Position numbers and translations under genes: made by a program
DNA from: a virus
DNA: 25,720 nucleotides
Virus record (IMG/VR): IMGVR_UViG_3300042691_025718
Span: 1 to 25,720 of that record
Reading direction: 5' to 3' (one strand)
The notes under the pieces: generated by a model
Told to the model about the DNA's origin: nothing
Seen by the model: the letters and a program-made list of their open reading frames with translations, nothing else
Database searches by the model: none
In this document: positions 1 to 25,700 of the stretch, piece after piece
How positions within the stretch are numbered: position 1 is the stretch's first letter
Layout of the letters: each line of letters opens with the position of its first letter

Positions 1-83
1 CAAACCAGGAAGAAGCCCTTGCTGCTGAGAAAGAGGCCCTACTCGCTGAGCAAGAAGCTCTCCTTGCTGAAGAAGAAGGGTAA
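1..83 (+). CDS. C-terminal end of an upstream gene (partial), Ala/Glu/Leu-rich
   Basis: Only the last 26 codons lie in the window, read from position 3 to the TAA at 81-83. The peptide is built from a heptad repeat (EALAAEK, EALLAEQ, EALLAEE) and ends in Glu-Gly, so it should form a charged helix or coiled coil. In phages with a Mu-like protease-scaffold the gene just upstream is often the portal or a MuF-type head protein, and portal proteins often end in acidic helical tails. That assignment is inference from position only. The stop codon lies inside the GGGTAAAA element at 78-85. Confidence 0.6.
   Translation, partial: NQEEALAAEKEALLAEQEALLAEEEG
12..74 (+). repeat. three 21-nt tandem units encoding an EALLAEx heptad
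   Basis: Units at 12-32, 33-53 and 54-74 encode EALAAEK, EALLAEQ and EALLAEE. The amino acids are better conserved than the codons, so selection for a helical heptad is likely. The array may extend upstream of the window. Confidence 0.7.
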
Positions 84-85
84 AA
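78..85 (+). promoter_or_regulatory. GGGTAAAA promoter-like element, copy 1
   Basis: This is one of seven identical octamers at gene boundaries. It overlaps the stop codon of the upstream gene and ends 25 nt before the GTG start of the protease-scaffold gene. A phage promoter element is inferred from its recurrence, orientation and spacing. Confidence 0.55.
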
Positions 86-110
86 AATGTTATCAGATCC
101 CTTATAGACT

Positions 111-2510
111 GTGTTCACTAAAAGAATTCACGTATTTCGTGCGGGTGATCAGACCTCTGCCCAAGGAATCAAGCGGACATTCTCTCCAGAAGATCTTCAG
201 CAAGTTGTCGACACATATGACCCTTCGGTCCATGAAGCTCCTATAGTTCTTGGCCACCAGGGTGATAACGATAGTTTGCCTTCTTTTGGGTGGATCCAAG
301 GATTTTCGAGGGAGGGACAAAATCTTTACGCAGATGTCTCTTTTACGGACACCGCTAAAGATTTGGTCAAAAACGGTCACTACCGAAAAGTATCAATTTC
401 CTTCTACTCCCCCGATAGCCAAATCAACCCGCACGGGGGAAAGTGGAGCGCAAGGCACCTGGCCTTGCTGGGGGCATCTCCCCCGGCTGTTAAAGGACTC
501 GAACCTTTCTCATTCAATGAGGCAGAGGGGTGCTTTGACTTCGCAGTGACTTTGTCCCCGGCCCAAATCTTTGATGACGAACTCGGTCCTACCTTGATCG
601 TTGAAAAGAGCCCTCTCGAGGTTCTTCGCGAAAAACTTGAGGAAGTTCGACAAGATGTTTCATCCGCTGTCAAAGATCTTCAAGAGTCTGGCGATACTCA
701 GAAGGAAACTAGCGTGGATGAAGCGGCTGGTGCACAAGCTCCGACCGAAATAACCAGCCCCGAGGAAAACCAACAATTTACGGAGGGCGCCAAAACCAAC
801 GAAATCACTCAGCAGACGGCTGAACTTGAAGACCAATTCCCAGAGGAACAATTTATGGAAGACGGAAAAATCAGCCGTAAGCACGCCAAAGGTGCCCACG
901 GCCAAGTAATGCAGGTTGTAGAAAACGTCTACGACGAGCAACACAAAGAGCTGCCCCCCGCTCTTAAAAAGAAAGCCGAAGAAATGAAGGCCAAAGCCAA
1001 GGCTCACCCTGGCGAAAAGGTTGAAATGGAAGAAGGCGACGAAATGGACTATGATGAGTCCGGTCGTTATGAAACAGCCCGTTCATCTGACAACGGTTAC
1101 GCCGACCGGATGAGCACAGGCAAGGAAGGCAAAGGCGGTGTTGGCGACGACCGCATGAACACTGCCAAGAGCGGTGAGCAGGAAGCCGATCGCGTTAGCA
1201 TTGCCAAGAATTCTGAGCAGGATTCCGATCGCAAAAAGACTGCCAAAGACGGCTCAGATAACGCAACTGGTGAATCCCGTTGGGCCGGTCAAGCCGATGC
1301 TGAAGATCGCACCATGAACGGCGACCAGTACGACACCGACGCTGACAGCTATCCTGAACCGAATCAGCCTAAAACTGCTTCCGGTTCTAACCCTGCTGGC
1401 CGCGAAGACGCTGATACCAAGATTCCTACCGAAACCGAAGAATCGCCTGACAACGAAGTGTTCGCAGTTAGCACCATCAACGTTATGTCTGATGGAAGCA
1501 TGCGCGTAATGCGTCAGAAGAGCAGCGATGGTCGTCAAGCCACCAAGGGCGGCAAGATTGACCACGCCGAGCCTGAGGCAGACGAGGTAACTTCCGAGCT
1601 GGGCGTAACTGCGATGGGCGAAGTTGACGATCTGACCCAAGGCAAAGCCAAACTCAAGAAAGGTCAACTGGAGCCTGGTCACTTTGAAGGTGGTGTTGCC
1701 GAAATCACCGGTCCTGACGGTGTGTTCGCAGAGGGTTACAAAGGAGAGAAGAAATCTTCTAAGAAGCAACTCACTCCTGGTGCAATGGATGAGATTGACG
1801 AAGCTGCTCAAGTTGTTGGTCCCGAAGGCGCTTTCGCTGAGGACAATCTGAGCGGTGATTTTGAAGGTGGCCCTAATCAAACCGCCAAGCGTTCCGGAGG
1901 CGTTTTCGCTGAAGAGCACGGTGAGAAGAAGAGTCCTTACACCAAGACTGGATTCGGTTCCACTTACGAGGAAGACGGCGACGACGACGCCGACGAAGAG
2001 GACTACGCCGACGAAGAGGACTACAACGAACTTTCCGCTGACCATTGTGGAATGGATTACGGCATGGGTTCAATGGCCCAAGCCAAGCCGTACGGTTTCC
2101 CCGCCGCCATCTTCGAGGAGCTCAACCGCCTGAAGAAAGAGCACTCTGAACTGCAGCGTCGCTTCGCTGAAGAGAAGATGAATGCCCGCAAGGCCAAGAT
2201 CGCCTCTTTCGTTGAGTCACTCTACGAAGATGGTCGCCTGACTGATGGCATCATGCCTCAGTCCGAGCTGCAAAGCTACTGCGAAGGGCTTGACTTCGGA
2301 ACTCTTGAGTTCTCCGAAGGTGAAACTGCCGCCACGAAACTGCTTGGCCTGCTGAGCAAGCTTCCTCCGATGGTTTACTACGATGAGGTCGCCGGTGGAA
2401 CTTTCCAGTTCGCCGAGGAAGATCTTGACCCCCACGCAAAAGCTTTGAAACTGGTTGAATCCGAAGGAATCGACTACGTTGAAGCTATCAAGCGCACAAT
2501 GTACAACTGA
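111..2510 (+). CDS. Mu gpI-like capsid maturation protease fused to a long scaffold
   Basis: This 799-aa protein starts at GTG 111; the only nearby ATG (87) opens a six-codon frame. Residues 1-135 match the head protease family typified by Mu gpI: an N-terminal KRIHVFRAG block, YDPSVHEAPIVLGH (36-49), FGWIQGFSREGQNLYADV (59-76), the KVSISFY block (93-99), and HLALLGASPPAVKGLEPF (116-133). The role is to clear the scaffold and process head proteins during prohead maturation. Residues about 165-660 are low-complexity, with Lys/Glu-rich stretches, degenerate DRM-TAK repeats (331-390), G-x-FAE repeats (534-607) and an extreme acidic patch (620-640). Residues 663-800 resemble a scaffold C-terminus, with a coiled coil at 665-700. 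Mu gpI is about 360 aa, so the middle is greatly expanded. The family call is strong; the catalytic residues were not assigned. Confidence 0.88.
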   Translation: MFTKRIHVFRAGDQTSAQGIKRTFSPEDLQQVVDTYDPSVHEAPIVLGHQGDNDSLPSFGWIQGFSREGQNLYADVSFTDTAKDLVKNGHYRKVSISFYSPDSQINPHGGKWSARHLALLGASPPAVKGLEPFSFNEAEGCFDFAVTLSPAQIFDDELGPTLIVEKSPLEVLREKLEEVRQDVSSAVKDLQESGDTQKETSVDEAAGAQAPTEITSPEENQQFTEGAKTNEITQQTAELEDQFPEEQFMEDGKISRKHAKGAHGQVMQVVENVYDEQHKELPPALKKKAEEMKAKAKAHPGEKVEMEEGDEMDYDESGRYETARSSDNGYADRMSTGKEGKGGVGDDRMNTAKSGEQEADRVSIAKNSEQDSDRKKTAKDGSDNATGESRWAGQADAEDRTMNGDQYDTDADSYPEPNQPKTASGSNPAGREDADTKIPTETEESPDNEVFAVSTINVMSDGSMRVMRQKSSDGRQATKGGKIDHAEPEADEVTSELGVTAMGEVDDLTQGKAKLKKGQLEPGHFEGGVAEITGPDGVFAEGYKGEKKSSKKQLTPGAMDEIDEAAQVVGPEGAFAEDNLSGDFEGGPNQTAKRSGGVFAEEHGEKKSPYTKTGFGSTYEEDGDDDADEEDYADEEDYNELSADHCGMDYGMGSMAQAKPYGFPAAIFEELNRLKKEHSELQRRFAEEKMNARKAKIASFVESLYEDGRLTDGIMPQSELQSYCEGLDFGTLEFSEGETAATKLLGLLSKLPPMVYYDEVAGGTFQFAEEDLDPHAKALKLVESEGIDYVEAIKRTMYN
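1101..1280 (+). repeat. degenerate repeats in the scaffold region (DRM-x-TAK units)
   Basis: The encoded peptide carries about four imperfect units of 14-17 residues, each with Asp-Arg-(Met/Val/Lys), then Ser/Thr, then (Ala/Gly)-Lys, then a Gly/Ser/Glu/Asp linker. The units lie at residues about 331-390 of the protease-scaffold protein. They look like tandem duplications that have drifted. Their function is unknown; they may bind capsid or lengthen the scaffold. Confidence 0.6.
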
Positions 2511-2518
2511 GGTTTGAA

Positions 2519-3172: not shown

Positions 3173-3180
3173 GGGTAAAA
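3173..3180 (+). promoter_or_regulatory. GGGTAAAA promoter-like element, copy 2
   Basis: It begins on the base after the TAA of the minor head gene and lies 74 nt upstream of the decoration protein ATG (3255). The longer distance than at other copies is filled by a structured leader (3194-3254). Confidence 0.6.
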
Positions 3181-3193
3181 CCATTCAGTTTAA

Positions 3194-3234
3194 CTGGGTG
3201 TAAAAACAAGTCCCAGAGTAAACAAATTGAAGTC
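3194..3234 (+). promoter_or_regulatory. structured 5' leader of the decoration gene
   Basis: The leader has a CTGGG/CCCAG stem (3194-3198 with 3212-3216) whose loop contains GTGTAA and AAGT, followed by TTGAAGTC at 3227-3234. The same order of short motifs recurs upstream of the major capsid gene (3745-3800). A role in mRNA stability or translation of these abundant proteins is inferred. Confidence 0.4.
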
Positions 3235-3244
3235 CTCATACTTT

Positions 3245-3248
3245 GGAG
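3245..3248 (+). promoter_or_regulatory. ribosome binding site GGAG deciding the decoration gene start
   Basis: GGAG sits six bases before ATG 3255. An in-frame TTG at 3243 overlaps this site and is therefore not the likely start. Confidence 0.65.
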
Positions 3249-3254
3249 AATTCC

Positions 3255-3734: not shown

Positions 3735-3744
3735 TAATTAACTT

Positions 3745-3778
3745 CAGTTGGGCATCCTTCGGGTGTAAGTCCCAACTG
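3745..3778 (+). promoter_or_regulatory. hairpin in the capsid gene leader
   Basis: An eight-base stem (CAGTTGGG at 3745-3752, CCCAACTG at 3771-3778) encloses a smaller CATCC/GGGTG hairpin around a TTC loop. No uridine run follows, so it is a poor intrinsic terminator. It more likely acts as a leader, attenuator or mRNA-stabilising structure. It is followed by TTGAAGTC (3793-3800), also present in the decoration gene leader, and by GGAG at 3814-3817 before the capsid ATG. Confidence 0.5.
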
Positions 3779-3827
3779 TGGTTTTCAACCATTTGAAGTC
3801 GTTTAACTATCTCGGAGCCTCCCTCCC

Positions 3828-4880
3828 ATGATGAACCTCCAGCAAACCTATGCTGGCGTAGATCCAATTCTGACTACGCTCGCACAAGGTTTCATGCTTC
3901 CGGCGACTAATATCGCCAACTTTATTGCCCCCGTTGTTGACACCCCGACTCGTGCTGGCCGCATTCTGCGCTTCGGCAAAGAGCAATTCGCCATCAACGA
4001 CTTCCGTCGTGCATACGGAACCAACATTCCGTTCGTTCAAAGCCGTTACGATGCTGAGCCTTATGCGCTTGAGCAAGAAGTCGTGGCTTGGGAACTGCCC
4101 GAAGAAGTCATCGAGAACGCTGGTGAAGGTCCTGCTCAGGTTGACCTGCGTGCGATCGAAACTCGCAACGCCATGTCTCGCCTGATGAATGCTTACGAGT
4201 ACACTGTAAGCCAGGCCGTAACCGTAACCGCTGGTTACAACCCTTACGAGCCTACCGCTGGTGCTGGTACTCAGACCGGTCTTGGTTTCACCACCTGGGC
4301 TAACTTCCAGACCGCCTACGGTTCTGCCGCTGGTCCTTCGGCTTGGTCTTCACTGACTTCCAACCCGATCGAGGACATCCTGACCCTGAAGCGTTCGGTT
4401 GCCAACCAAATCGGTATCCGTCCGAACTCGATGGTTCTGGGAACTGCCGTGTTTGATCAACTGCTGACCAACCAGGCTATCCTTGAGCGCATCAAGTACA
4501 CCACTGCCGATTCAATCGACACAGACCTGCTTGCTCGTTACTTCGGTCTTGAGCGTGGTCTGCGCGTTGCTGAGGGCCGTTATCTTGCCACCGATGGCAC
4601 CCTGCAGCCTGTGTTCCCTTCAAACGGAATCCTGCTGTTCTACAGCCCCAATGGTCCTTCAGATAGCGTAATGCCTGCTGGTGGTGCTAATGCTGCTACC
4701 CCTGCTTTCGCTTACACCTATCAACTGACTGGCACCCCTGCTGTTCGCCCCGAGTACTACATTCGTGAGCGTCGCGTGGTTCGTGCTGAAATCACTGTTG
4801 AGCGTGTTGTTAACCTGGTGGGTCTTGGTGCCACTGGTCTTATCGGTTCTGGCGCGATGATCTCCAACATTCTTGGTTGA
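3828..4880 (+). CDS. major capsid protein (HK97-like fold inferred)
   Basis: This 350-aa protein starts at ATG 3828 (a second ATG follows at 3831), with GGAG at 3814-3817. It should form the icosahedral shell. The N-terminal region, with the LPATNIANFIAPVV segment (residues 25-38) and RILRFGKEQFAI (44-55), resembles major capsid proteins of Mu-like and related myoviruses. A central helix carries DLRAIETRNAMSRLMNAYE (105-123), and the C-terminal region has YYIRERRVVRAEITVERVVN before a Gly-rich end. Size, position after protease and decoration genes, and the strongest codon bias in the window all support the call. The protein is full length. The HK97 fold itself is inferred. Confidence 0.85.
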   Translation: MMNLQQTYAGVDPILTTLAQGFMLPATNIANFIAPVVDTPTRAGRILRFGKEQFAINDFRRAYGTNIPFVQSRYDAEPYALEQEVVAWELPEEVIENAGEGPAQVDLRAIETRNAMSRLMNAYEYTVSQAVTVTAGYNPYEPTAGAGTQTGLGFTTWANFQTAYGSAAGPSAWSSLTSNPIEDILTLKRSVANQIGIRPNSMVLGTAVFDQLLTNQAILERIKYTTADSIDTDLLARYFGLERGLRVAEGRYLATDGTLQPVFPSNGILLFYSPNGPSDSVMPAGGANAATPAFAYTYQLTGTPAVRPEYYIRERRVVRAEITVERVVNLVGLGATGLIGSGAMISNILG

Positions 4881-4888: not shown

Positions 4889-4894
4889 ATACAT

Positions 4895-5373: not shown

Positions 5374-5400
5374 ATCCCCGGCTTCGGCTGGGGATTTTTT
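5374..5400 (+). terminator. intrinsic terminator after the head/tube operon
   Basis: Nine-base GC-rich arms (ATCCCCGGC and GCTGGGGAT, with one G-T pair) close a TTCG tetraloop and run into six T residues. It is followed four bases later by a GGGTAAAA element, which makes a clear boundary between two transcription units. Confidence 0.92.
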
Positions 5401-5403
5401 GTA

Positions 5404-5411
5404 GGGTAAAA
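5404..5411 (+). promoter_or_regulatory. GGGTAAAA promoter-like element, copy 3
   Basis: It lies just after an intrinsic terminator and 30 nt before ATG 5442. A new transcript must start about here to express the tail genes, so this copy gives the strongest contextual support for promoter function. Confidence 0.65.
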
Positions 5412-5441
5412 CCAATTCAAGAAGGCAATCCGTAGGGATTC

Positions 5442-6026: not shown

Positions 6027-9000
6027 ATGCCTAGATACGCACCATTACCGTCAGTTTCGATTGACCCTCGAAATGAAGCAGAGCTTGTTCAAGCTGCTTC
6101 ACAAAGAGTATATCAAGCCTCTAACCAAACGTTAAACGACTTCAGCTCTGGAAACCCTCTGGCTGCTTTGCTGGAAGGGCAGGTTTTCGCGCAGGGTGAG
6201 TTTCTCTTTTGGGCGAACCAGCTGCCAGAAAAGATTCTGCTTGAGTGGATTGGTCCTTTCCTGGGTGCGATGAGACGCCTTGGGACTGCGTCTCTCGCTC
6301 GTCTTGTACTTACAATACCGCCTTCAAACAGCCCCGTCACAATTCCCTCCGGCTCTTCGTTCACAACTGACCCGAACATCACCGGCGGCCAAGTTTATTC
6401 TTTCCTGACTGCTGAGAATTACACTTTCTCGCCAGGAGAGACGGTTATTTACGTGCCGGTATTCTCAGAGTTTGTCGGGTCGCTTTACAACGTGCCTGCG
6501 AACTCGATCGTCGGCTCTTCAGCGATAAACGTCGCTGGTTTGAGTGCAATAAATCCTGAGCCCGCAACCGGTGGATCGGACGTTGAAACTTACCAGGAAG
6601 TTCAGGAACGTTTTTTCACGTTAATTCGTCGAAAGAACCCTGTAAGCGCGCAAGATTGGCAGGACTTCTTCATCGACTTTTACGGAGTAGGGACTCAAAC
6701 ATCGGTGCAACCCAACAGAGGGTCTGAATTCTCGTACAATTACTTAACCGACTACATCCTACCAAGCGGTCAAGTATCATTCTTCGTTCTTGGTCCTGGC
6801 GGTGTTGAACTAACTGAGGAACAACTCAGCAGGGGTCAAAATGTGGTGAACTTCTCTGTTCCGGTCGGAACAACGGGACACCTGTATCCCCTAACACTTA
6901 GCCAGGTTCAATACGACATTACCCTGGAAGTGGATGCCAACAGTTCTTTCGGAGTGAATCTACGGAACTCCTCGTTGAACTTCCGGGACAGGCTTTTCCA
7001 GTTGCTTCAGCCCGGCAACGTTTTTCCTTCCTCTACCGATCCGAGCGTAAGCGACGTTGATTCCGCTTTCTACGCAACGTTTGACGCGGACACTCGGTAC
7101 GTTAACCCGCGAATTGTAACCGCGAAGGCATACAACACTCCGCCACAACTCGGACCTTCTGCTGCGCTTTATACGCAGGTCTACGCTTTTGACCCATCTG
7201 AGCAACTTCTGAACCAAAACGACTTGGTTTTGGAGACGATTCCGACAACGTCTTATTATCCCGTCCTTACCTCTTTTACTCCGTACTCTGCCGAAAAGAA
7301 AGATCAGACGATTTACGGAAATCTGGTCATGAGGCAAATTCAACTTCTGCAAGCGGGAAGTTACAACCAAGGTGACGTTGTTTACTGGAGCCCAGCGAGC
7401 GGTGGCGACGGAAAACTCCATGTGATCCTTGACAACATCAACATCGGCTCCTTAGCAGAAATTCCCCTTCTCATTTCAGCTGGAGGCAAGATATCCGGAG
7501 AGAAAACCTACTCACCGTGGTCGATTGGAAACAGCTACGTAAGCGGTTTTGGCAGTTTTTACGACCCCGAGATAGTAGAATACGACTATGTTCCAGGTGA
7601 CGGTCAGTTCGTTCCCGAAACGCCCCAAGAACTCTTGATCGGTCCCATTTCCGCCTTAGGGACAATTACTCCTGGTTTGGGATACACAGACGGAAATTAT
7701 ACGAATGTTCCTTTTGTTAACACCACTGGATTCGGCGTGGGGGCAACAGCAAACATCACGGTTTCCGGCGGCGTTGTGACAGACGTGGCGCTTATCTTCC
7801 CCGGTGAAGGTTATACACCAGGGTCGATTTTAACAGCAGATGATTCAAACCTTGGCAACAGTGGAGTTGGCGCTGGTTTCAGCATCCCTGTTACAGCAGT
7901 TACCGTCCCAAGAATCGGGAGTTTGGTTTGGGTTGTTGATCAAAACTTCACTCTCGAGGCTCCCTCAAATATCACAACAAGCGCACTTTCCGCAGGTCTT
8001 TTAGGAAGTTCGGTGGTTCCCGACTCCCTGGTTCCCGGAAACTCGTATTTGTCTGGAACGTGGGTTACCACTCCTCAAATCGGATCCGGACCGAATGCGG
8101 TGGCAGACCCTTACTACAACTACGTGGACCCCTTGAAGGGTGGCGTGAACAAATTTGCCTACGTTTTGCAGGGATTTGTGTACGAGCCAAACGACTTAGC
8201 GGTCAAAGAATACTTCGACACACTTGTTGAGCTCGGAATCATTCAAGAAATCGTGGTTCAAAATGCAGACCTCGGTTTGCCAGTGTACAAGTACAAACCC
8301 CGTTTCCCGGTGGGAACCTACCTGGAGTACAAGGAATCGAGTGTGTCAGCACCACAGTATTTTGTAGCAACTCAGTACTTCACGCCGGACAGCACTTTGA
8401 TTAACGATTTGCTGGATCAAAACCTCGTTTTACCGTTGGCTTACACGCCTTCTCAGGTAGTTTCACTTGCTGAGTCTATTAACAACGGCACGGTTAAAAC
8501 TCCGCAGAGAATGTTCCGGTTCTTCAAGGGTGACACCACATTCTTCAGACAAGGTAGTGAGATTCTTTCCTACACTGCGACGACGAACGTAACACCTCTG
8601 TTTGACTTTTCAGTCTACTTTCAGAACCAAGTGTTTGTGCCCTCGGCTGATGTCGCTGACAGCGCCCTCCTGACTCTGCCGTACATTCCCTATTTCAACC
8701 CGGACTACTCGCTCTACTCCGAGGATACGATTGTTTCGGAGGATGGTAGAAACTTGTATCGAGTCATGCGAGCTTTCTCGCCAGTGCCAACCGTTACCGA
8801 CTGGACGAACACCACTGTCGTCAACACAACCAGAATCGAAGAGTACGAAGGTAACCTTCTTCGGTACGTGAATGCTTACACTTGCGACGAGCAGATCAAA
8901 TCTCAGTTTGGTCGGGATATCTCGGCGATCAAACTTGGTATCGCAAGCATTACGTTAATCCCTAAGAATGGTGGCAGGTTCAGTAACGCTTCGGCTCCCT

Positions 9001-9119
9001 ACTTGTACGTTTGGGAGAACGCTTCTACTTCGACGGAAGTTCCGCAGCTTTCCTGGTTCACTGGAACAACCTACCCCTATTCGCCGCCGAACTATAGAAA
9101 CGGGACTATGGGGCTATGA
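6027..9119 (+). CDS. baseplate wedge protein, T4 gp6/baseplate J-like
   Basis: This 1030-aa protein has ATG 6027 preceded by GAGG (6016-6019). The N-terminal third matches the gp6/J family as found in cyanophages: SIDPRNEAELVQAASQRVYQ (11-30), LNDFSSGNPLAALLEGQVFA (36-55), LPEKILLEWIG, a VTIPSGSSF turn (104-112), and the ETYQEVQERFFTLIRRKNPVSAQDW segment (about 187-211). Members build the baseplate ring that clamps the tail tube. Residues about 541-628 form a Gly-rich inserted domain (see findings). The C-terminal 400 residues are beta-rich and unassigned. T4 gp6 is 660 aa, so this copy is much enlarged. It overlaps the next gene by four bases (ATGA), which indicates translational coupling. 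Confidence 0.85.
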   Translation: MPRYAPLPSVSIDPRNEAELVQAASQRVYQASNQTLNDFSSGNPLAALLEGQVFAQGEFLFWANQLPEKILLEWIGPFLGAMRRLGTASLARLVLTIPPSNSPVTIPSGSSFTTDPNITGGQVYSFLTAENYTFSPGETVIYVPVFSEFVGSLYNVPANSIVGSSAINVAGLSAINPEPATGGSDVETYQEVQERFFTLIRRKNPVSAQDWQDFFIDFYGVGTQTSVQPNRGSEFSYNYLTDYILPSGQVSFFVLGPGGVELTEEQLSRGQNVVNFSVPVGTTGHLYPLTLSQVQYDITLEVDANSSFGVNLRNSSLNFRDRLFQLLQPGNVFPSSTDPSVSDVDSAFYATFDADTRYVNPRIVTAKAYNTPPQLGPSAALYTQVYAFDPSEQLLNQNDLVLETIPTTSYYPVLTSFTPYSAEKKDQTIYGNLVMRQIQLLQAGSYNQGDVVYWSPASGGDGKLHVILDNINIGSLAEIPLLISAGGKISGEKTYSPWSIGNSYVSGFGSFYDPEIVEYDYVPGDGQFVPETPQELLIGPISALGTITPGLGYTDGNYTNVPFVNTTGFGVGATANITVSGGVVTDVALIFPGEGYTPGSILTADDSNLGNSGVGAGFSIPVTAVTVPRIGSLVWVVDQNFTLEAPSNITTSALSAGLLGSSVVPDSLVPGNSYLSGTWVTTPQIGSGPNAVADPYYNYVDPLKGGVNKFAYVLQGFVYEPNDLAVKEYFDTLVELGIIQEIVVQNADLGLPVYKYKPRFPVGTYLEYKESSVSAPQYFVATQYFTPDSTLINDLLDQNLVLPLAYTPSQVVSLAESINNGTVKTPQRMFRFFKGDTTFFRQGSEILSYTATTNVTPLFDFSVYFQNQVFVPSADVADSALLTLPYIPYFNPDYSLYSEDTIVSEDGRNLYRVMRAFSPVPTVTDWTNTTVVNTTRIEEYEGNLLRYVNAYTCDEQIKSQFGRDISAIKLGIASITLIPKNGGRFSNASAPYLYVWENASTSTEVPQLSWFTGTTYPYSPPNYRNGTMGL

Positions 9120-15740: not shown

Positions 15741-15770
15741 AGACTGTGAGCGGGTAAAACTAAACAGTCT
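15741..15770 (+). promoter_or_regulatory. GGGTAAAA promoter-like element, copy 4, inside an inverted repeat
   Basis: The octamer is at 15752-15759, 22 nt before ATG 15782. It is flanked by perfect six-base arms, AGACTG (15741-15746) and CAGTCT (15765-15770). The arms could form a hairpin in RNA or a binding site in DNA. Other copies of the octamer do not show the same arms. Confidence 0.55.
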
Positions 15771-18359: not shown

Positions 18360-19577
18360 ATGGAACTTAACACAATATCCCGTATCGAGCAGTTCATTGT
18401 TGATGCTCTTGTTGCCTCCCCCCTGATTCCAATCAGTGTGAATGTTCTTCGTCTCGCAGACGCGATCGAAAACGAGGGAGTGGTGCAGCAAACTAACAAC
18501 ATCGTCGTGCGTTACACGGGTTCTTCAAACACAGTTAAGAATCGCATTCCGATGGTTTTCGAGCGGAGTATGAGCTTCGAGCTGAACTTCTCCTGCCAGA
18601 ACTATCTCACCTCCTCTGGTCACGATTTCGCCACCCAACTTCTTGCAGGCGCTTTCAACACGATAAACGGCAGTGTTCCGTCCGGTGCGTCAGTGCAGAC
18701 GATCGAACCTTTCACGTGTCAAAACGAACTGTTCACTGGCATCAGTCCCGAATCTCAGTACACCTACACTCAAACTTACGTTCTTACGATTGAGGAAACG
18801 CTGCCGTATGTTGCCCTTGACCCTTGCGTTCAACGTGGCGATTGCCGGCAAATCTTTCCGGGACCGAACGTTGAAACGCGCCTTCCCTTGGCTGGAGTTG
18901 TTGACACCGCAAGCGGAGAGATTTACGTTCCGTGGTACACGGGAATCAAGTTACCCTTGGAAGACTATTCCGCCCCGTACGGTGTTCGTTGGAGCAATCC
19001 TGCGACTTCGTCAGGAAACTGGGTGTTTGTTTGCGACCCGGACACGGTATTCCTCCCAGATCCCCTCAACCAACCGATTTATCTTTTGAGCAACAACAGC
19101 TATACTGAAGATGGCAGGTTAGTTGTGACCGTTTGGGACGCCGAAACCTCCGAACCGATTGAGGAAGTTTTCTACTCGCCGACCGGAAAGTTTCTGGCGC
19201 GGTACGCGATCGAGCTGTGGAATGACGTCGCAGGAAAAGCCGATCCGATTTCCGACCGGGCTTCAAAATATGCTGAGTGGTTCACAGGCATGAACGTAGG
19301 CGAGTTTGCGGTCATTACCGGAGCGTACACCTTCTTAAACATCGACCCGTTGAATCCGGAGGCAAAACAACTGTACCTTGAGGGCGGTTCCGTGATCGGA
19401 ATTGTCCCCGAGACGTTCATTCAGACCCCGAAGGGAAGGTACTACTTTGTAGCTAAATCCCCCCAAGGGAAAGGGTGGATTCTGGAAGATACGTTCCAGC
19501 TCGCCTCTATCAACTCACTGTGGAAGTTAGGTTGCGTTCCCTGTGAAGGCAATCCCGGTCCCATCGCCCCTTGTTAA
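18360..19577 (+). CDS. Mu gp37-like (DUF1834) protein with a large C-terminal extension
   Basis: This 405-aa protein starts at ATG 18360, three bases after the gp36-like gene. In Mu-type phages gp37 follows gp36. Here residues 1-150 fit that family in size and pattern: an N-terminal helix (IEQFIVDAL), PISVNVLRLADAIE, NNIVVRYTGSS, an RSMSFELNF strand, and YTQTYVLTIEE near 148. Its role would be tail completion or head-tail joining. Residues 160-405 are an added beta-rich region ending in a Cys/Pro tail (GCVPCEGNPGPIAPC). The stop codon overlaps the ATG of the next small gene (TAATG). The gp37 assignment rests on order and pattern, not on a sharp motif. Confidence 0.6.
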   Translation: MELNTISRIEQFIVDALVASPLIPISVNVLRLADAIENEGVVQQTNNIVVRYTGSSNTVKNRIPMVFERSMSFELNFSCQNYLTSSGHDFATQLLAGAFNTINGSVPSGASVQTIEPFTCQNELFTGISPESQYTYTQTYVLTIEETLPYVALDPCVQRGDCRQIFPGPNVETRLPLAGVVDTASGEIYVPWYTGIKLPLEDYSAPYGVRWSNPATSSGNWVFVCDPDTVFLPDPLNQPIYLLSNNSYTEDGRLVVTVWDAETSEPIEEVFYSPTGKFLARYAIELWNDVAGKADPISDRASKYAEWFTGMNVGEFAVITGAYTFLNIDPLNPEAKQLYLEGGSVIGIVPETFIQTPKGRYYFVAKSPQGKGWILEDTFQLASINSLWKLGCVPCEGNPGPIAPC

Positions 19578-19735
19578 TGGACTCATCACAAGAACTTTGG
19601 AACAGTTACCACATCGCCGTGCAGCGCGGCGACATGGAAGAAGCAAAGAAGATCTTGCAAAAGATCGTGTCATACAAGGGGAATCCCCCGCCACCGAGAG
19701 GTGGTTGCTCCAAATGTAGAAAGAGGCTTTACTGA
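19577..19735 (+). CDS. 52-aa coupled small protein with a CxxC motif
   Basis: The ATG shares a base with the previous stop (TAATG), and its own TGA shares a base with the next ATG (TGATG), so translation is probably coupled on both sides. The protein has an amphipathic helix rich in Glu and Lys (GDMEEAKKILQKIVSYK), then a Pro run, then GGCSKCRKRLY. The C-terminal CxxC with basic residues could bind zinc or nucleic acid. Its place two genes before the large terminase suggests a packaging accessory. The gene is short but well supported by its overlaps and clean frame. Confidence 0.65.
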   Translation: MDSSQELWNSYHIAVQRGDMEEAKKILQKIVSYKGNPPPPRGGCSKCRKRLY

Positions 19736-20014: not shown

Positions 20015-21748
20015 ATGCGTCCCGTAATCACGAAAGCCAGCCAGCTCGAAGAACACAGCTCGTGGAGAAAATACCAGCGAGGCATACGTGAACTGACGCT
20101 TATGGAAGCACCACGCATGGTGATTCAGGATTTTCGGTACAAAGCTGCCCGCGATTGCTTTCTCGCTTTTTGCGACATTATGAAGCACGGCGACCTGCAG
20201 GTTGCCCCGTTTCATGAACTGATCGGCTCAGCGTTTGAAGACCTTGCTACGCGAAGGTACAAGCGATTGATTGTTTCCTGCCCGCCACGATCGGGAAAGT
20301 CAATGCTTGCGACCATGTTCTTGGCGTGGCTTCTCGGGCGAGACCAAAGGACACAACACGTCATTGCCTCTTACGGTGCGTCTCTCTCCTTCAAATTTCA
20401 CCGCGAAGTGGTTCACATGATGAAGTCGAAGGAGTTCAAGCGGGTGTTCCCTGAGTGGCTTGGATTCTCCCCGGACTCAAAGTATGACATGGTCGGCGGC
20501 GGTTACATTCTTGCCACTTCCGTTGGCGGGGTGTTAACCGGTTTCACCGCCGGAACAACAGATATGGACAGCCCTGGCGTTGGCGCCATGGTGATTGACG
20601 ACCCGCTGAAATCTTCGGACTCAAAACAAGCACTCGACAACCTTGAATCTTGGTGGCAAGAGCAGGCGTCCACCCGAAGAACCAACCACTACTGCCAGAT
20701 GGTTATCGCAACTCGCTTCCACGAGAAAGATTTGCACGGCGTTCTGATGGAAGGCGACGGCCTTTACGACGAGGTTCACAACCCGTTTGGTTGGCGTTGG
20801 ATCAATATCGCAGGGCTTTGCGAAGACCCGCGCACTGACCCGCTTGAGCGGCAGATTGGAGAATCGCATTGGGGTGACAACCCGACTTTTTCTGTGCCGA
20901 TGCTCGAGTCGCAGAAGAAGATTATGGGAAGCTTCAAATTTGCGGCGCTTTACCAAGGCGTTCCCGTTGCTGCGGAAGGCCAGATTGTCAAGAACAGTTG
21001 GATTGAGGTTATCGAAGAAGAAGATTGCCCGCCACTTGATGTCGTGTGGTTAGCGGCTGACTGCGCTTTCTCCGAGAAACAAATGGCGGACGAAACCGCG
21101 ATTTGCGTGGCTGGGATTAGTATGCGAGATCCGACTGTTATTTACATTCGAGAGATTGTGAAAGGTCGATGGGGTTTCCCCGACTTGGTTGAAGCCGTGA
21201 AGCAAAACTACACATATTATCAGGCAAAAGTTCTATGTATCGAAAAAGCAGCTTCGGGGCACTCTCTCATTCAAGTTCTTCGAAAAGAAGCGAGAGTTCC
21301 GATCGAAGAGATGAAGCCGTTGAAGTCGAAGACTACGAGACTTCAGGCCGTTTGTCCTTTACTGGAGAACAGCCGGGTTAAACTGGTTCAGGGGCACTGG
21401 ACTGACACATTCATCAAGGAATTAACCTCATTCCCGTTTGTCCGTCACGACGACAGTACGGACGCTTTTGCTTGGGCGCTCACTTACTATGCAATGAAAA
21501 TGGACGTTGTTGATCGTAACCTGCAGGACACGATTATTCAAAACAAGCGATTCAAAGGAGATTTACTTCGTGATGGGCTCGGGGATAAGTCCGTCTTTGG
21601 GGAAATTCGCACAGGACGGCAGAAGTTGTTCTCGGGCGACACCGCAATTAACGACCCGGACTACGACGCTTCAACGATGGGTGTTGATGCTCGTTCACCT
21701 TTCGTGAGCGGAAGACGGGGTGGAAGAGGACGACTCGGCTACGAATGA
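20015..21748 (+). CDS. terL: terminase large subunit, ATPase and nuclease
   Basis: This 577-aa protein starts at ATG 20015, preceded by a G-rich site. It is the DNA-packaging motor at the portal. The ATPase domain has a Walker A of the form CPPRSGKS (residues 89-96), Walker B AMVIDDP (191-197) and the ATR coupling segment (232-234). The RNase H-like nuclease domain has the acidic residues in AADCAFSE (Asp349), CIEKAASG (Glu410) and HDDSTDAFAW (Asp480 and Asp483). The length is normal for the family and no key residue is missing. The last 70 residues are polar and Gly/Arg-rich. It is the last gene of the operon and is followed by a hairpin. Confidence 0.95.
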   Translation: MRPVITKASQLEEHSSWRKYQRGIRELTLMEAPRMVIQDFRYKAARDCFLAFCDIMKHGDLQVAPFHELIGSAFEDLATRRYKRLIVSCPPRSGKSMLATMFLAWLLGRDQRTQHVIASYGASLSFKFHREVVHMMKSKEFKRVFPEWLGFSPDSKYDMVGGGYILATSVGGVLTGFTAGTTDMDSPGVGAMVIDDPLKSSDSKQALDNLESWWQEQASTRRTNHYCQMVIATRFHEKDLHGVLMEGDGLYDEVHNPFGWRWINIAGLCEDPRTDPLERQIGESHWGDNPTFSVPMLESQKKIMGSFKFAALYQGVPVAAEGQIVKNSWIEVIEEEDCPPLDVVWLAADCAFSEKQMADETAICVAGISMRDPTVIYIREIVKGRWGFPDLVEAVKQNYTYYQAKVLCIEKAASGHSLIQVLRKEARVPIEEMKPLKSKTTRLQAVCPLLENSRVKLVQGHWTDTFIKELTSFPFVRHDDSTDAFAWALTYYAMKMDVVDRNLQDTIIQNKRFKGDLLRDGLGDKSVFGEIRTGRQKLFSGDTAINDPDYDASTMGVDARSPFVSGRRGGRGRLGYE

Positions 21749-21772
21749 GTGGTGATTTGGTAACCACCACTC
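21747..21772 (+). terminator. hairpin after the terminase gene, weak terminator candidate
   Basis: A perfect eight-base stem (GAGTGGTG at 21747-21754, CACCACTC at 21765-21772) with a ten-base loop begins inside the terminase stop codon. It lacks a proper T run; TATAATCT follows. It may terminate weakly, protect the mRNA end, or act as an operator over the adjoining -10 box. Confidence 0.5.
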
Positions 21773-21778
21773 TATAAT
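21773..21778 (+). promoter_or_regulatory. TATAAT -10 box, host-type promoter candidate
   Basis: A perfect sigma70-type -10 hexamer lies 32 nt before ATG 21811. No good -35 hexamer is visible at 17 bases spacing, where the preceding hairpin lies. Unlike the other gene groups, no GGGTAAAA element is present here, so this gene may be expressed by host RNA polymerase, perhaps early. Confidence 0.45.
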
Positions 21779-21788
21779 CTAAAAGTTG

Positions 21789-21804
21789 CTGTTGTTTACA
21801 ACAG
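21789..21804 (+). promoter_or_regulatory. 16-base palindromic hairpin before the 65-aa gene
   Basis: CTGTTG (21789-21794) and CAACAG (21799-21804) pair perfectly around a TTTA loop and end six bases before ATG 21811. The symmetry suits a repressor operator or an RNA hairpin covering the ribosome entry site. No Shine-Dalgarno sequence is visible for this gene. Confidence 0.5.
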
Positions 21805-21810
21805 ATTACC

Positions 21811-22008: not shown

Positions 22009-22031
22009 GATTTAAACTCGCTCCAGTGAAG
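22000..22031. terminator. inverted repeat between convergent genes
   Basis: CTTCACT (22000-22006) and AGTGAAG (22025-22031) flank a centre that is itself nearly palindromic around TTTAAA. The structure spans the ends of the plus-strand 65-aa gene and the minus-strand desaturase gene. It may be a bidirectional terminator, but no long T run follows on either side. Confidence 0.3.
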
Positions 22032-22701
22032 AAGCTGCCCAGTAAATAAGATCGAATTTGTGCATCCTTTTTCGTTCGGGGTGACGGTGGTGGTCAGAAT
22101 GAAACTCTTCTCCCCACATCAAGGGGTACAACAAGGGAAGATTCAAAGCACTGCCCCCTTCACCCTCGCCTAAGTGATTCGCAATGAAGATGAGGTTCAG
22201 CATCCAGAAAGAAACCACTGGTATGAAAGGGAACACCAGAGAGGAAAGTAGGAAAAAATTAGCATTATTTCGATGCTGCAGGCAAATCTCTGGATCTCGC
22301 AGATACCTGACGTAGGATTTCACCGGCGGGTAGAATGTTTCGTCCCAACGCTTGAAAACGGTTCTCACGAGCCCTATCCTGCGAAAATCGTGAGGGTCTA
22401 GAGTCGTATCGGTGTGCTTGTGATGTTCAACATGAACGGCGCAACTCACTGCAAGACTTCCGAATCCGCACATCGAGAAAAGATCGCACAGAAACTTCTT
22501 GACACGGCGTGAAAATTGAAACTGATTGTGGGCCACCGCCCTATGCATAAACGCATACGAGGCGATGTTGAAGCTGAGCAGTCCCACGAACAAGGAAGCC
22601 AGCATATAGGTGTAGCCGAACACGTAGGAATACACGCCAAAGGTAATATGGCTTAGCGCGTAGAGAGTGGCGTACAGCCTGACGCTTCTTTGCAATTTCA
22701 T
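22012..22701 (-). CDS. membrane fatty acid desaturase, delta-9 (DesC-like)
   Basis: This 229-aa protein should insert a double bond into a membrane acyl chain using a di-iron centre and reduced ferredoxin. The three histidine boxes are intact: HRAVAH (residues 53-58), HVEHH (90-94) with the KHTDTTLDPH continuation typical of delta-9 enzymes, and HSDHH (201-205). NH at 175-176 is also typical. Hydrophobic segments lie at about 10-50 and 147-175. The start is set at ATG 22701, four bases after the stop of the upstream minus-strand gene; an in-frame TTG at 22740 would overlap that gene. Cellular DesC enzymes are usually 270-300 aa, so this is a compact form. It is probably a phage metabolic gene that alters host membrane fluidity. 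Confidence 0.88.
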   Translation of the reverse strand: MKLQRSVRLYATLYALSHITFGVYSYVFGYTYMLASLFVGLLSFNIASYAFMHRAVAHNQFQFSRRVKKFLCDLFSMCGFGSLAVSCAVHVEHHKHTDTTLDPHDFRRIGLVRTVFKRWDETFYPPVKSYVRYLRDPEICLQHRNNANFFLLSSLVFPFIPVVSFWMLNLIFIANHLGEGEGGSALNLPLLYPLMWGEEFHSDHHRHPERKRMHKFDLIYWAASSLERV

Positions 22702-22702
22702 C

Positions 22703-23155
22703 TTAACCTGCTGCACTAAAGTCTCTGAAGTAAAGACCAAGTTTGAGGGAGGGTTTAAACTTATACCGTTTTAGAAGGTTGTCGGAGATTTTACCGTTCT
22801 TTCGAAGAACAGCCACCCCTTTCACGCAAGGTCGATTCAAATCACGCAAAAGTTTGAAGGTTCTTTCTAGAATTTTAGGTCTATCACCGTAGTTCGGTAG
22901 GATAAAGACCCCTAAATAGTAGTACGTGCCCTTCAGGTACGGGGAGTACCGGGCATCCCCTGTAACCGTTCCGACAACTGTATTGGTGGGATTGTGTAAA
23001 ATCGCCATTACGACTTTGTTAACCCGCACTTTCGCAAGATTGAGGCTGTAAACCTTGTTGTTCACCCATAACTCTACAGCTTGGGTTTGGACAACCGCAG
23101 ATTTCAAGTCGTCGCCGAAGAGTAAGCTGTATTCGGTAGTTTGATCTTCAGTCAC
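22703..23155 (-). CDS. GNAT-like acyltransferase fold protein, divergent
   Basis: This 150-aa protein starts at GTG 23155; the ATG two bases earlier is followed at once by a stop in its own frame. The pattern of strands and helices resembles GNAT N-acyltransferases: VVMAILHNPTNTVVGTVTGD, then YYYLGVFILPNYGDRPKILE, a helix, and LLKRYKFKPSLKLGLYFRD at the end. The last part recalls the family's terminal Y-x-x-x-GF segment. The usual acetyl-CoA loop (Q/R-x-x-G-x-G/A) is not clear; YGDRPK stands in its place, so activity is uncertain. It is the first gene of a two-gene minus-strand operon with the desaturase and has a promoter-like element 32 nt upstream. Confidence 0.5.
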   Translation of the reverse strand: MTEDQTTEYSLLFGDDLKSAVVQTQAVELWVNNKVYSLNLAKVRVNKVVMAILHNPTNTVVGTVTGDARYSPYLKGTYYYLGVFILPNYGDRPKILERTFKLLRDLNRPCVKGVAVLRKNGKISDNLLKRYKFKPSLKLGLYFRDFSAAG

Positions 23156-23187
23156 ATCTCAAAGGGTGGATGACCAATGTATTTCGA

Positions 23188-23195
23188 TTTTACCC
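23188..23195 (-). promoter_or_regulatory. GGGTAAAA promoter-like element, copy 6, minus strand
   Basis: Read on the minus strand this is the same octamer. It points to the GNAT-like and desaturase operon and ends 32 nt before GTG 23155. It lies 24 bases from the plus-strand copy that points to phoH. Confidence 0.6.
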
Positions 23196-23219
23196 ACCAG
23201 CCTGTGTTCGTTGAGAGTA

Positions 23220-23227
23220 GGGTAAAA
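23220..23227 (+). promoter_or_regulatory. GGGTAAAA promoter-like element, copy 5
   Basis: It ends 27 nt before ATG 23255 of phoH. It lies inside a longer possible phoH reading frame from 23177, which argues that the shorter start is the real one. Confidence 0.6.
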
Positions 23228-23254
23228 TTCACTGTACGAGTTGCCCTTCCAACC

Positions 23255-24076
23255 ATGACTCGTTCCATTCGTTCTGAAGGGGGTGATAAGGATGTAATCC
23301 TGTTAAGCAGCAAAGTGTATGACCTACCCACCGACTGTATCACTCCCTTAAACATGTTAGATTCAAAGACAAAGCGCAAGGCTCGCCGTGCTGAAAATGC
23401 CCAGATGCTAGAACAATCCTACCACAAAGGAATGGATGTCATGCCTCCCAAGTTTCTGACTTGGCGGCAAGAAGATCTGTGGAATTCCCTCAAGAAAAAC
23501 ACTGTTACTCTCGCCCATGGCTGTGCCGGAACCGGGAAAACGCTGATTGCGTTGCATTACGGATTGTATGGTGTCGCCTCCGGCGATTTCAACAAAGTGT
23601 ACTACGTTCGAAGTGACGTGGGTGTTGAATTCCAGCGCGGGCGCGGAGCGCTGCCTGGAGACCTTTCCGAGAAGATCGCACCCCTGATTGCGCCTGTTCT
23701 TGACAACTTGCCCTGCATCATGAGATCACACGGTGCAAGTGAGTACCTGCTGAACAAGAAAATTATCGAGCCTGTCCTCCTGGAAGACATTCGGGGACGC
23801 TCGCTCAACGAGGCTTTCATCATTGTTGATGAGGCTCAGAATTTCCTCCCTTCACAAATCAAAACCGTCCTGACTCGCGTCGGCAAAGATTCGAAGATCC
23901 TTCTGATTGGTGACACGAAGCAGACCGATATGGAAGTGTTTCGAAGGGAAAATGGTTTGGTCGACGCTATTCACCGACTGCGCCACCTGTCGGAAGTTGG
24001 AATCGTAGAGTTCTCAAAAGAGGACATCGTTCGTAACTCCGTTATCGCCCACATTCTCGACCGTTACGAAGACTGA
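23255..24076 (+). CDS. phoH: PhoH-like ATPase
   Basis: This 273-aa protein has a P-loop ATPase core: Walker A GCAGTGKT (residues 89-96), a Walker B FIIVDEAQN (188-196) and the GDTKQTD motif (219-225) typical of PhoH. YYVRSDVGVEFQRGRGALPG (117-136) is the conserved segment after Walker A. PhoH is very common in phages of cyanobacteria and other marine hosts; its role is not settled, and RNA or phosphate-stress functions have been proposed. The start is set at ATG 23255 because the promoter-like octamer lies at 23220-23227; a frame from ATG 23177 would add 26 residues. It is followed after five bases by the HNH-like gene. Confidence 0.9.
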   Translation: MTRSIRSEGGDKDVILLSSKVYDLPTDCITPLNMLDSKTKRKARRAENAQMLEQSYHKGMDVMPPKFLTWRQEDLWNSLKKNTVTLAHGCAGTGKTLIALHYGLYGVASGDFNKVYYVRSDVGVEFQRGRGALPGDLSEKIAPLIAPVLDNLPCIMRSHGASEYLLNKKIIEPVLLEDIRGRSLNEAFIIVDEAQNFLPSQIKTVLTRVGKDSKILLIGDTKQTDMEVFRRENGLVDAIHRLRHLSEVGIVEFSKEDIVRNSVIAHILDRYED

Positions 24077-24081
24077 TTGCA

Positions 24082-25686
24082 ATGGGAAGTAAGTATCGCT
24101 GGTTTGACTTTGCAGGGTCAAAAAGTTATTCAGACGACAATTTGGATGCTCTTTTGGCTGACATCCAAGGCAAACCAGCAGCTTCTTCACCTAAAAACTC
24201 TTCTTCGAAGACGAGTCCAAGTGTAAGAAGTTCCAAAGGTGCCAAAAAATGCACCAAAGGCACTTCTTGCGGTGCTGCGTGTATTCAAAAAGGCGACAAA
24301 TGTTTGCTTGACCTTGTACCAGGACTTTCACCCGAGTTAAGAAAAGCAGTAAATGTTATTGGGAGACAAATATCCCCTGGTACAACGGACGACGACTTGG
24401 AGGAAACTATACTCAAATCATTTACCACCCTGGATAATAAGCAACAAAAAGCCTTTGCTGAATTTGGGGAATTGATGCGGCAGGGGAAAGTAACACAAGA
24501 AGAGGAGCAGATGATAGCCAATTTAATAGTTAGTGTAACATTAAAGCCAAAACAAGACGATAGAGGCGCAGCCCGTGCTATGTCTTATGACGAGATAAAA
24601 TCCATACATGAGTCAGGGCGTTTAGTCGAATTAGAAAAAGCGTACAAAGCGTCCATAAAAGACGGAGTCTTCAATCCTAATGCTCCGGGGGGGATGTCAG
24701 ACTATATCGAGAAGAATATAAAACAAGTTGAAATTTCAGAGAAAGTGGCAAATTTAGGTTTTAACATGCTGCCTCAGAGAGCAAGACAGTCTATTGTCAA
24801 CAGCGGCAGCGTAAAGGGAGAAGGTCAAGTTTTCAACGGGTACGATGCAAAGGGAAATGTAATTTTTGGTAACACGGGCAATGAAGCGCGAGGCACTCTG
24901 ATGGTCAGGAGGTGGGGGGAGCAAGCAGGTTTGGACCCATTTTCTGGTTTTTATGTGGATATCCGAGCTGGTGAACCCGAACACTTGTTTTCCTGGAGCC
25001 AAGCTAAAGCGTCGGGTGGCAAAGGTGATCACCCTGGTAATTTGGCGATCGCTGCACCACAAACCAATAACTCCAAAGCAGGAAAGGGCATTGACGACGA
25101 TTTTGGTAAATGGGGCTCCCAGGTTAAAAAATGGTATGACATGGGACCTGACAAATACCGTGCAGAGGTAGTAGAGCCAAAACTCGCTAAAGCGGCGGGA
25201 GCATCGGACAAGAAAGAAAGAGCCTCCTCAGAAGTAGAGAGGGCATTCTCAGCAACAACACCAAAAGAAAGGGTGCAGATTATACTTTCTGCCGCAAAAT
25301 CGTACGGTGATCGTGTGCGGTACCTGGTAATTGCAACCGGTGCCGAAAGTGGTCAGTGGGGTCAAAAAATTCCCGGCGCCAGGGCAGAAAGAAGACTGGA
25401 AATGGACGCCAGAGCGGAAGTAAGAATCGGCGGAAAGAAATTAAAACCTAGTGGTGCAGTTCTAGCAGCAGCAGCCACGATGGACCCGTCGCAGAGGGAG
25501 AAATTCATGCAGCAAATTGATCAACTTCGAGTAGCTAGATCGCCTAGCACACAAGAAATCGCCAAATTCTCTGGCAAAGATGATCCGAAATACGCTGCAA
25601 GATTAGAAGAGCTAGACAGACAATTTGAGAATAGCCTGACCAAGCTCATAGAGGAACAAGCGCCATCTTTGAAAGAGTTGCTATAA
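24082..25686 (+). CDS. 534-aa protein with a cysteine motif and HNH-like nuclease core
   Basis: The ATG 24082 lies five bases after phoH. Residues 1-55 are polar and Ser/Lys-rich. A compact cysteine motif follows at 57-74 (CTKGTSCGAACIQKGDKC). I recall similar short motifs in head-associated proteins of cyanobacterial phages, but could not check. Residues 100-280 are mostly helical. Residues about 284-340 resemble an HNH nuclease core: LDPFSGFYVDI, then EPEHLFSW (Glu300, His301), GGKGDHPGNLAIA (Asn320), and TNNSKAG (Asn329/330, Lys332). The zinc-binding Cys pairs of many HNH enzymes are absent. The C-terminus is Lys/Arg-rich and helical. Codon use is more A/T-rich than in the virion genes, which suggests a different origin. 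It could be a homing nuclease, a packaged nuclease or an effector. Confidence 0.55.
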   Translation: MGSKYRWFDFAGSKSYSDDNLDALLADIQGKPAASSPKNSSSKTSPSVRSSKGAKKCTKGTSCGAACIQKGDKCLLDLVPGLSPELRKAVNVIGRQISPGTTDDDLEETILKSFTTLDNKQQKAFAEFGELMRQGKVTQEEEQMIANLIVSVTLKPKQDDRGAARAMSYDEIKSIHESGRLVELEKAYKASIKDGVFNPNAPGGMSDYIEKNIKQVEISEKVANLGFNMLPQRARQSIVNSGSVKGEGQVFNGYDAKGNVIFGNTGNEARGTLMVRRWGEQAGLDPFSGFYVDIRAGEPEHLFSWSQAKASGGKGDHPGNLAIAAPQTNNSKAGKGIDDDFGKWGSQVKKWYDMGPDKYRAEVVEPKLAKAAGASDKKERASSEVERAFSATTPKERVQIILSAAKSYGDRVRYLVIATGAESGQWGQKIPGARAERRLEMDARAEVRIGGKKLKPSGAVLAAAATMDPSQREKFMQQIDQLRVARSPSTQEIAKFSGKDDPKYAARLEELDRQFENSLTKLIEEQAPSLKELL

Positions 25687-25692
25687 GAAGTA

Positions 25693-25700
25693 GGGTAAAA
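25693..25700 (+). promoter_or_regulatory. GGGTAAAA promoter-like element, copy 7
   Basis: It lies six bases after the stop of the HNH-like gene and should serve a gene just beyond the window. The last 20 bases after it end in nine T residues; nothing else can be assigned there. Confidence 0.55.

Follow-up and report, generated by a model that had tools for sequence, protein, structure and literature searches.

We found that the octamer GGGTAAAA, of which seven copies lie in a virus record of 25,720 bases (IMG/VR IMGVR_UViG_3300042691_025718; the window hereafter means this whole stretch), is very probably a promoter element in the clade related to Synechococcus phage S-CBWM1, and only slightly less surely a late one. 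Given a late promoter, its reader is probably P0002, one of the two annotated sigma factors of S-CBWM1. The full explanation, in which GGGTAAAA is the late promoter of the clade, consists of a -10 element only, and is read by the SigB/SigF/FliA-type phage sigma P0002, seems to us reasonably likely on the sequence evidence. The window carries genes for a head protease, major head protein, tail tube, baseplate, head-tail adaptor, terminase, and PhoH. Its nearest annotated relative, judged by the terminase, is S-CBWM1 (Aokuangvirus, 139,069 bp) at 58.5% identity, and a near-identity search of annotated phages with the window gave no match.

All seven copies reported in a preliminary description of the window were recovered at the same coordinates. 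They are listed here with their predicted transcription starts.

78..85, plus strand: putative late promoter core GGGTAAAA ahead of the gene for the head maturation protease; transcription start predicted at an A at about 92
3173..3180, plus strand: putative late promoter core leading gene 3243 and perhaps also gene 3828 for the major head protein; predicted start at about 3187
5374..5395, plus strand: terminator-like hairpin of 9 pairs, then TTTTTGT, directly before the 5404 promoter
5404..5411, plus strand: putative late promoter core leading gene 5442 and baseplate genes; predicted start at about 5418-5419
15752..15759, plus strand: putative late promoter core that ends 22 nt ahead of ATG 15782; predicted start at about 15766
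23188..23195, minus strand: putative late promoter core of a minus-strand operon (genes 22703-23155 and desaturase-like 22012-22740)
23220..23227, plus strand: putative late promoter core of the PhoH gene (ATG 23255); predicted start at about 23234
25693..25700, plus strand: putative late promoter core at the window end, with the next gene outside; predicted start at about 25707

Seven copies are indeed far above chance, as dinucleotide shuffles of the window gave a mean of 1.02 and a maximum of 4, and none of 100 shuffles reached 7. With the start codons chosen here, five copies end 22-32 nt ahead of a start codon as previously described (25 nt before GTG 111, 30 before ATG 5442, 22 before ATG 15782, 27 before ATG 23255 rather than the upstream ATG 23177, and 32 before GTG 23155 on the minus strand), and the copy at 3173 ends 62 nt before TTG 3243. 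The copy at 5404 likewise follows, right where a terminator had been described, the terminator-like hairpin at 5374-5395. The proposal that the octamer marks the start of every transcription unit, however, was too strong: gaps 3735-3827, 19578-19734, and 21749-21810, which precede genes 3828, 19735, and 21811, contain no octamer, and thus it is not the mark of every unit.

S-CBWM1 has 33 copies of the octamer in the direction of the genes and one against it, which ranks the octamer first of all 8-mers by strand bias; it is absent from the top 15 of a high-order Markov ranking of 8-mers. For 21 of the 33 copies an annotated plus-strand start follows the octamer end at 20-40 nt (2.6% at random; binomial p ~2e-25), and for 30 one follows within 100 nt. 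Distances range from 4 to more than 90 nt, with a median of 27 nt for the 25 sites within 45 nt and three sites at 4-6 nt. Only five of the 33 lie wholly in coding sequence, which makes up 89% of the genome, and four of these five are within 20 nt of the gene end, so the equal frequency inside genes that had been named as the finding that would speak against a promoter was not seen. For uncultured relatives we turned to IMG/VR, where 318 stretches match head-protein patterns and 308 of them encode a relative; 39 terminase loci and 80 of the 308 head-protein loci were kept. Among 19 relatives picked for strand counts mostly by length, some of them near-identical and many of them short fragments, the octamer is biased in every one (313 copies on the major and 5 on the minor strand in sum), and the word read backward, as a control, occurs 38 times on both strands together.

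No like bias was seen in ten other phages, given here as forward/reverse copies: S-TIM5 8/4, S-N03 0/2, S-CBS2 1/0, S-CRES3 1/0, Cr-LKS4 3/4, S-PM2 4/2, T4 2/6, S-CREM2 0/0, ACG-2014f 5/1, and MaAM05 11/10. This set aside as octamer users both S-TIM5, which has the next nearest terminase among isolates by kind, and the phages with SigF/FliA-like sigmas (S-CBS2, S-CRES3, Cr-LKS4, and MaAM05).

The octamer is tied to virion genes. Under a simple operon rule it leads 18 of the 20 named virion or packaging genes of S-CBWM1 versus 9 of the 31 other named genes (Fisher p 1.7e-5), and it directly precedes 9 of the 20 versus 2 of the 31 (p 0.0018), where hypothetical genes were excluded and virion labels were assigned by us from product names. 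One of the two directly preceded non-virion genes encodes NMN adenylyltransferase. Because a passage of the S-CREM2 genome paper places proteins of this type in the S-CBWM1 virion (PMC10665884), this gene may be late too. Neither phage sigma gene is directly preceded by an octamer; the operon rule ties the P0001 gene to a distant octamer at 99643, and two relatives (G001 and G003) have a TATACT box of sigma-70 type ahead of this gene.

Conservation follows place and orientation, for which the following genes of the window serve as landmarks.

111..2510, plus strand: head maturation protease gene (phrog_976, 7.2e-68)
3828..4880, plus strand: major head protein gene (phrog_1005, 1.2e-51), octamer not directly in front
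6027..9119, plus strand: baseplate wedge gene (phrog_6, 2.7e-16)
20015..21748, plus strand: terminase large subunit gene, terL (phrog_38, 1.4e-81)
22012..22740, minus strand: fatty acid desaturase-like gene (PF00487, 5.1e-10)
22703..23155, minus strand: unknown gene without a PHROG match, first after the minus-strand octamer
23255..24076, plus strand: PhoH-like gene, phoH (phrog_170, 6e-64), start re-placed from 23177, where the mechanical open reading frame (ORF) starts

The junction between genes 4909 and 5442 has the exact octamer in all 61 loci with both genes (47 distinct flanks), and the junction between 2519 and 3243 has it in 61 of 66 related loci. At four junctions that lack it in the window, the octamer was found in 0 of 75 (before the major head protein gene 3828), 1 of 61, 0 of 79, and 3 of 56 loci. 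This gene-by-gene test had no loci for 15752 and only 2 for 16033. An octamer nevertheless lies 4245-4272 bases before terL in 9 of the 13 terminase loci with a full 10-kb flank (4263 for the window copy at 15752). In S-CBWM1 the head protease gene is likewise directly preceded by an octamer, at 128436, and octamers also precede PhoH and the gene following the putative tail tube gene. The count was limited to the 32 of 39 terminase loci that hold terL as well as phoH, and the forward octamer between these genes is exact in 28 of the 32. The minus-strand desaturase operon is present in 5 of the 32, with an exact minus-strand octamer in four and a one-mismatch copy in the fifth (L009). Of the 27 loci without the operon, a single one (L026) has a minus-strand octamer, ahead of a different minus-strand ORF. 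Reverse octamers thus accompany reverse operons, which supports the reading of the octamer as a promoter.

Several side observations concern these intervals. The minus-strand pair at 22012-23155 between terL and phoH, with its own late-type promoter, is possibly an acquired metabolic gene cassette. Inverted-repeat-like sequences without a T-tailed terminator are found before the major head protein gene in gap 3735-3827 (CAGTTGGG...CCCAACTG) and after the 3173 octamer at 3188-3220 (CTGGG...CCCAG). The gap at 19578-19734 before gene 19735 is 157 nt long, equal in length to its counterpart in S-CBWM1 (63162-63318), and in the window its region holds an ORF of 54 amino acids (19571-19735), perhaps an unannotated small gene.

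The anatomy of the element was examined on 117 sites (26 from S-CBWM1, 6 from the window, and 85 others), which remained of 525 octamer sites in overlapping loci after removal of similar flanks. These sites show no -35 signal, with a mean of 0.018 bits from -50 to -9 and a maximum of 0.053 bits from -50 to -5, and a -35 or -32 box of the type GTTTAA or TAGGC was therefore dropped. Nor is the octamer a sigma-70 promoter by consensus, as promoter-like sites occurred at chance (11 vs 10.7; 9 vs 7.4) and none at octamers. The base preceding the octamer is A or C in 79% of the sites and T in 3%, and the octamer is followed by two pyrimidine-rich positions (77% and 74%); farther on, offsets 13 and 14 stand out for T and A, respectively. 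Of the flanking bases proposed earlier, the following pyrimidine is borne out (77%), while a preceding TA holds only loosely (A 47%, C 32%, T 3% at the preceding base). At 53 of the 117 sites a pyrimidine-A step starts at offset 13, the next highest count at any offset being 29 sites; such a step at offsets 13-14 is what one would expect to see if transcription began about 7 nt beyond a -10 element. The core itself is stringent. In six genomes the exact word counts 144/4, the best one-mismatch words 25/13, 24/8, and 21/7, and GGGTATAA 13/0; a degenerate core was rejected, since one-mismatch words fall far under the exact word, although several are mildly biased. Taken together, strand bias, spacing to starts, the missing -35, the initiator-like signal, the virion link, and the reverse operons indicate that the octamer is very probably a late -10-only promoter, and the phage-specific late promoter core first suggested from the window is supported by these features and by conservation across species. 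As a separate observation, three octamers of S-CBWM1 (26662, 65887, and 126638; L120-L122) have in common a longer repeat upstream, in which ...CACTGTCCCA... immediately precedes the octamer.

Of the two annotated sigma factors of S-CBWM1, P0001 (gp055) and P0002 (gp045), the former has homologues in 5 and the latter in 6 of the 19 relatives, many of them short. The P0002 gene lies outside the window; it is encoded by G001 (89 kb), a relative whose terminase and major head protein show 100% identity. In further records fetched via P0002 homologues (18 of 30 loci, with 5 other records left out), the octamer is biased in 18 of 18, with 227 copies to 14 in sum. P0002 best matches SigB/SigF/SigG and SigF models, over its first two thirds only and far below curated cut-offs; against TIGR02980 it scores 53 bits (cut-off 234), with residues 17-154 on profile positions 3-142 of 227, and we thus regard it as SigB/SigF-like and do not file it as a member. 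Each of 16 aligned P0002 homologues matches both the SigB/SigF/SigG and the FliA/WhiG models. A single-sequence search with P0002 put SigA and FliA chains first, not sigma-B; in the alignment of the family profile with S. aureus sigma-B, residues 27-215 of 256 are covered. The best PDB match of this profile, 8vd6 ('CAP REPEAT'), was set aside because it is confined to a repeated stretch of 25-27 residues.

The part of P0002 that may read the octamer is suggested by sigma-B, in which, according to an excerpt of PMC11156646, GGG at -15 to -13 is contacted by R110 (-15G), R100 (-14G), and R97 (-13G). In the P0002 family the R110 and R100 positions are R in 16 of 16 and the R97 position is H in 16 of 16. 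The corresponding residues are V, N, and G in P0001, V/Q/R in the S-N03 sigma, and T/E/R in the ACG-2014f sigma. TIGR02937 covers P0001 to its end (2-165 of 165) and P0002 over 5-80 only, and the P0001 match to the sigma-70 superfamily model reaches the end of the profile. A predicted structure of P0002 has a single helix (201-218) near the end, where the helix-turn-helix of region 4 would be expected, and this single C-terminal helix, admittedly a weak point, would fit the missing -35. Foldseek with the P0002 model gave the sigma-B open complex as second match, at a TM-score of 0.35, and in the VIA-align fold comparison the C-terminus is spanned in many of the matches listed.

Some observations weigh against a late promoter read by P0002. 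Nine of the 31 non-virion genes are octamer-led under the same operon rule, the P0001 sigma gene included, and a homing endonuclease or tRNA follows at least two of the octamers. The sigma and the octamer belong to one clade, so that their co-occurrence does not amount to independent evolution. In one relative with both sigmas (G010) the octamer is sparse (9/1), and three sigma-fetched records are less pure (30/6, 18/3, and 9/2). R, R, and H also occur in the FliA homologue of Microcystis phage MaAM05, and R, R, and M in the Cr-LKS4 sigma, in genomes without octamer bias (11/10 and 3/4); the arginine pair therefore marks a sigma group and not the exact word. Furthermore, F79 of the -11A pocket is not kept in the P0002 family, P0001 too has a weak SigB/SigF/SigG match (39.5 bits, region 2), and the predicted P0002 structure is modest (mean pLDDT 71.7, pTM 0.45), with TM-scores to whole sigmas of about 0.35. 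A second look with VIA-align was led by SigE and sigma-70 domain 2, and sigma-B was not among the 50 matches listed. On the G010 lineage (L144-L149) we note that AGGGTAAA counts 16/0 and that the last core base may have drifted; G020 (record of L184, 277 kb), which is twice the size of S-CBWM1, has a P0002 homologue and 30/6 octamers.

It is also conceivable, albeit unlikely, that the late promoter is read by the other phage sigma, P0001, which resembles T4-like cyanophage sigmas and would have changed its specificity. P0001 has been conserved within the clade, with homologues in 5 of 19 relatives, and matches cyanomyovirus sigmas (S-N03 and ACG-2014f) at about 24-25% identity, and T4 gp55 is presented as the classic late sigma in a passage of PMC2988020. 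Yet P0001 matches the sigma model to its C-terminal end although the promoter has no -35 signal, and none of its residues at the GGG-contact positions is an arginine. In ACG-2014f, whose sigma is P0001-like, TATAAATA counts 17/0, but the backward-read control also reaches 10/2 and GGGTAAAA 5/1; since S-N03 has no clear excess of either word, this comparison of the two phages is weak. Borrowing of the host SigF, with the octamer as its -12 box, appears quite improbable: the GGTAA of the Synechocystis SigF -12 box, as given in a section of PMC2758279, does lie inside the octamer at about the right place, but no TAGGC or other -32 signal was found in the 117 sites, octamer bias was not seen in ten other phages, several of them cyanophages, and the same section describes SigF protein as undetected by Western blot in Synechocystis.

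An RNA-level leader element, acting in translation, stability, or processing, deserves marginally less credence still. Octamers 22-31 nt before many start codons would be transcribed if an upstream promoter read through them, but the initiator-like step at a fixed 13-14 nt, octamers located within the final part of the preceding gene (5 of 33), the copy right after the terminator-like hairpin, and start distances that vary from 4 to more than 90 nt all speak against such an element. Chance, composition, or a mobile repeat has a negligible probability, being excluded by the shuffles, the backward-read control, the one-strand bias, and flanks that differ between sites.

In the mechanism that we favor, GGGTAAAA would be the recognition core of the late promoter in the clade of Aokuangvirus S-CBWM1 and its uncultured relatives, serving as a -10 element at about -15 to -7 with no -35 used. 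Transcription would begin 7-8 nt past the octamer at a purine, in most cases an A that follows a pyrimidine, and the leader ahead of most start codons would then measure roughly 16-25 nt. The reader would be the host core polymerase with P0002 (S-CBWM1 gp045 and its homologues), whose regions 2.4-3.0 may read the GGG as in S. aureus sigma-B and which may have lost the -35-reading helix-turn-helix of region 4. An idea that goes further, and whose chances we consider even, is that this cyanomyovirus clade replaced the T4-type late switch by a SigB/SigF-derived sigma without the -35-reading helix-turn-helix and an invariant 8-bp -10-only promoter, reaching the gp55 design independently and retaining a gp55-like sigma for another purpose. 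If the mechanism is true, -10-only late promoters are not bound to gp55 or TATAAATA, and a short stringent promoter is gained for cyanobacteria. In addition, GGGTAAAA offers a computable late-gene marker for a largely uncultured phage group, and P0002 a testable example of how a sigma of stress type may become a late sigma that reads a single element.

Apart from the octamer, a likely second promoter class was noticed, with box GGGCGGTTTCCC, then CTTGTTT, about 17 nt, and TATAAT or TATACT (L150-L159 in G011, L123, L124, and L120-L122). Its layout suggests an early or middle promoter of host type that carries an upstream activator site, and it also precedes the P0001 gene in G001 and G003. In G011 the box GGGCGGT[AT][AT] occurs 38 times forward and 7 times reverse. 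In S-CBWM1 the second-class box has no such strand bias (7/14), but CGCCCTTT is biased (19/1). Late octamers rarely lie within 300 nt of a second-class promoter (0 of 33 in S-CBWM1 and 1 of 21 in G011). In G003, taken in flipped orientation, 72-nt tandem repeats with CAGCCTAACC (16 forward, 0 reverse) occupy about 31.8-32.8 kb.

No GGGTAAAA late promoter was found in the literature searched, which did not cover the S-CBWM1 genome paper (Xu et al. 2018), where the motif may be reported. GGGTAA in one published paper was discarded, as it is part of a CRISPR spacer match and not a promoter report. Late genes of another cyanobacterial myovirus, Microcystis phage Ma-LMM01, have host sigma-70-like promoters without a phage-specific motif according to a portion of PMC5780444; Ma-LMM01 is thus like the window phage in kind but unlike it in the lack of such a motif.

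The T4-type late promoter (TATAAATA; gp55, gp33, and gp45) shares with the octamer a short -10-only element, the absence of a -35, a place near virion genes, and presumably a phage sigma. It differs in the word and in the sigma, which here is likely SigB/SigF/FliA-like and not gp55-like. As the preliminary description had rightly held, the word is not that of T4: TATAAATA is absent from S-CBWM1 (0/0), with 1/1, 1/1, 0/2, 0/0, and 0/0 in the other five clade genomes. Compared with its backward-read control, in counts by strand of the record and not of the genes, TATAAATA stands out in S-CREM2 (10/2 vs 2/0) and ACG-2014f (17/0 vs 10/2) and is not in excess in S-PM2 (9/3 vs 19/2); T4 has 18/14. 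These controls make TATAAATA a weaker positive contrast in T4-like cyanophages than we first took it to be.

The octamer also resembles bacterial promoters in part. Passages of two reports give the Firmicutes SigB promoter as GTTTAA-N15-GGGTAT (PMC9847131) and the S. aureus SigB boxes as GTTTWW and GGGWAW (PMC11156646). The first six bases of the octamer, GGGTAA, agree with GGGWAW, and two of the three G-reading residues are kept in P0002. Unlike a SigB promoter, the octamer has no GTTTWW box about 14 bp upstream, has further fixed A's, and serves late phage genes. Synechocystis SigF promoters, as described in part of PMC2758279, have GGTAA at -12 and TAGGC at -32; the octamer resembles this cyanobacterial SigF (type 3) promoter in containing GGTAA at about the same place, and differs in that TAGGC at -32 is missing and the phage has its own sigma. 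Judged by its sequence, then, the octamer combines the mode of action of a T4 late promoter with the appearance of half a SigB/SigF promoter, and we file it under neither.

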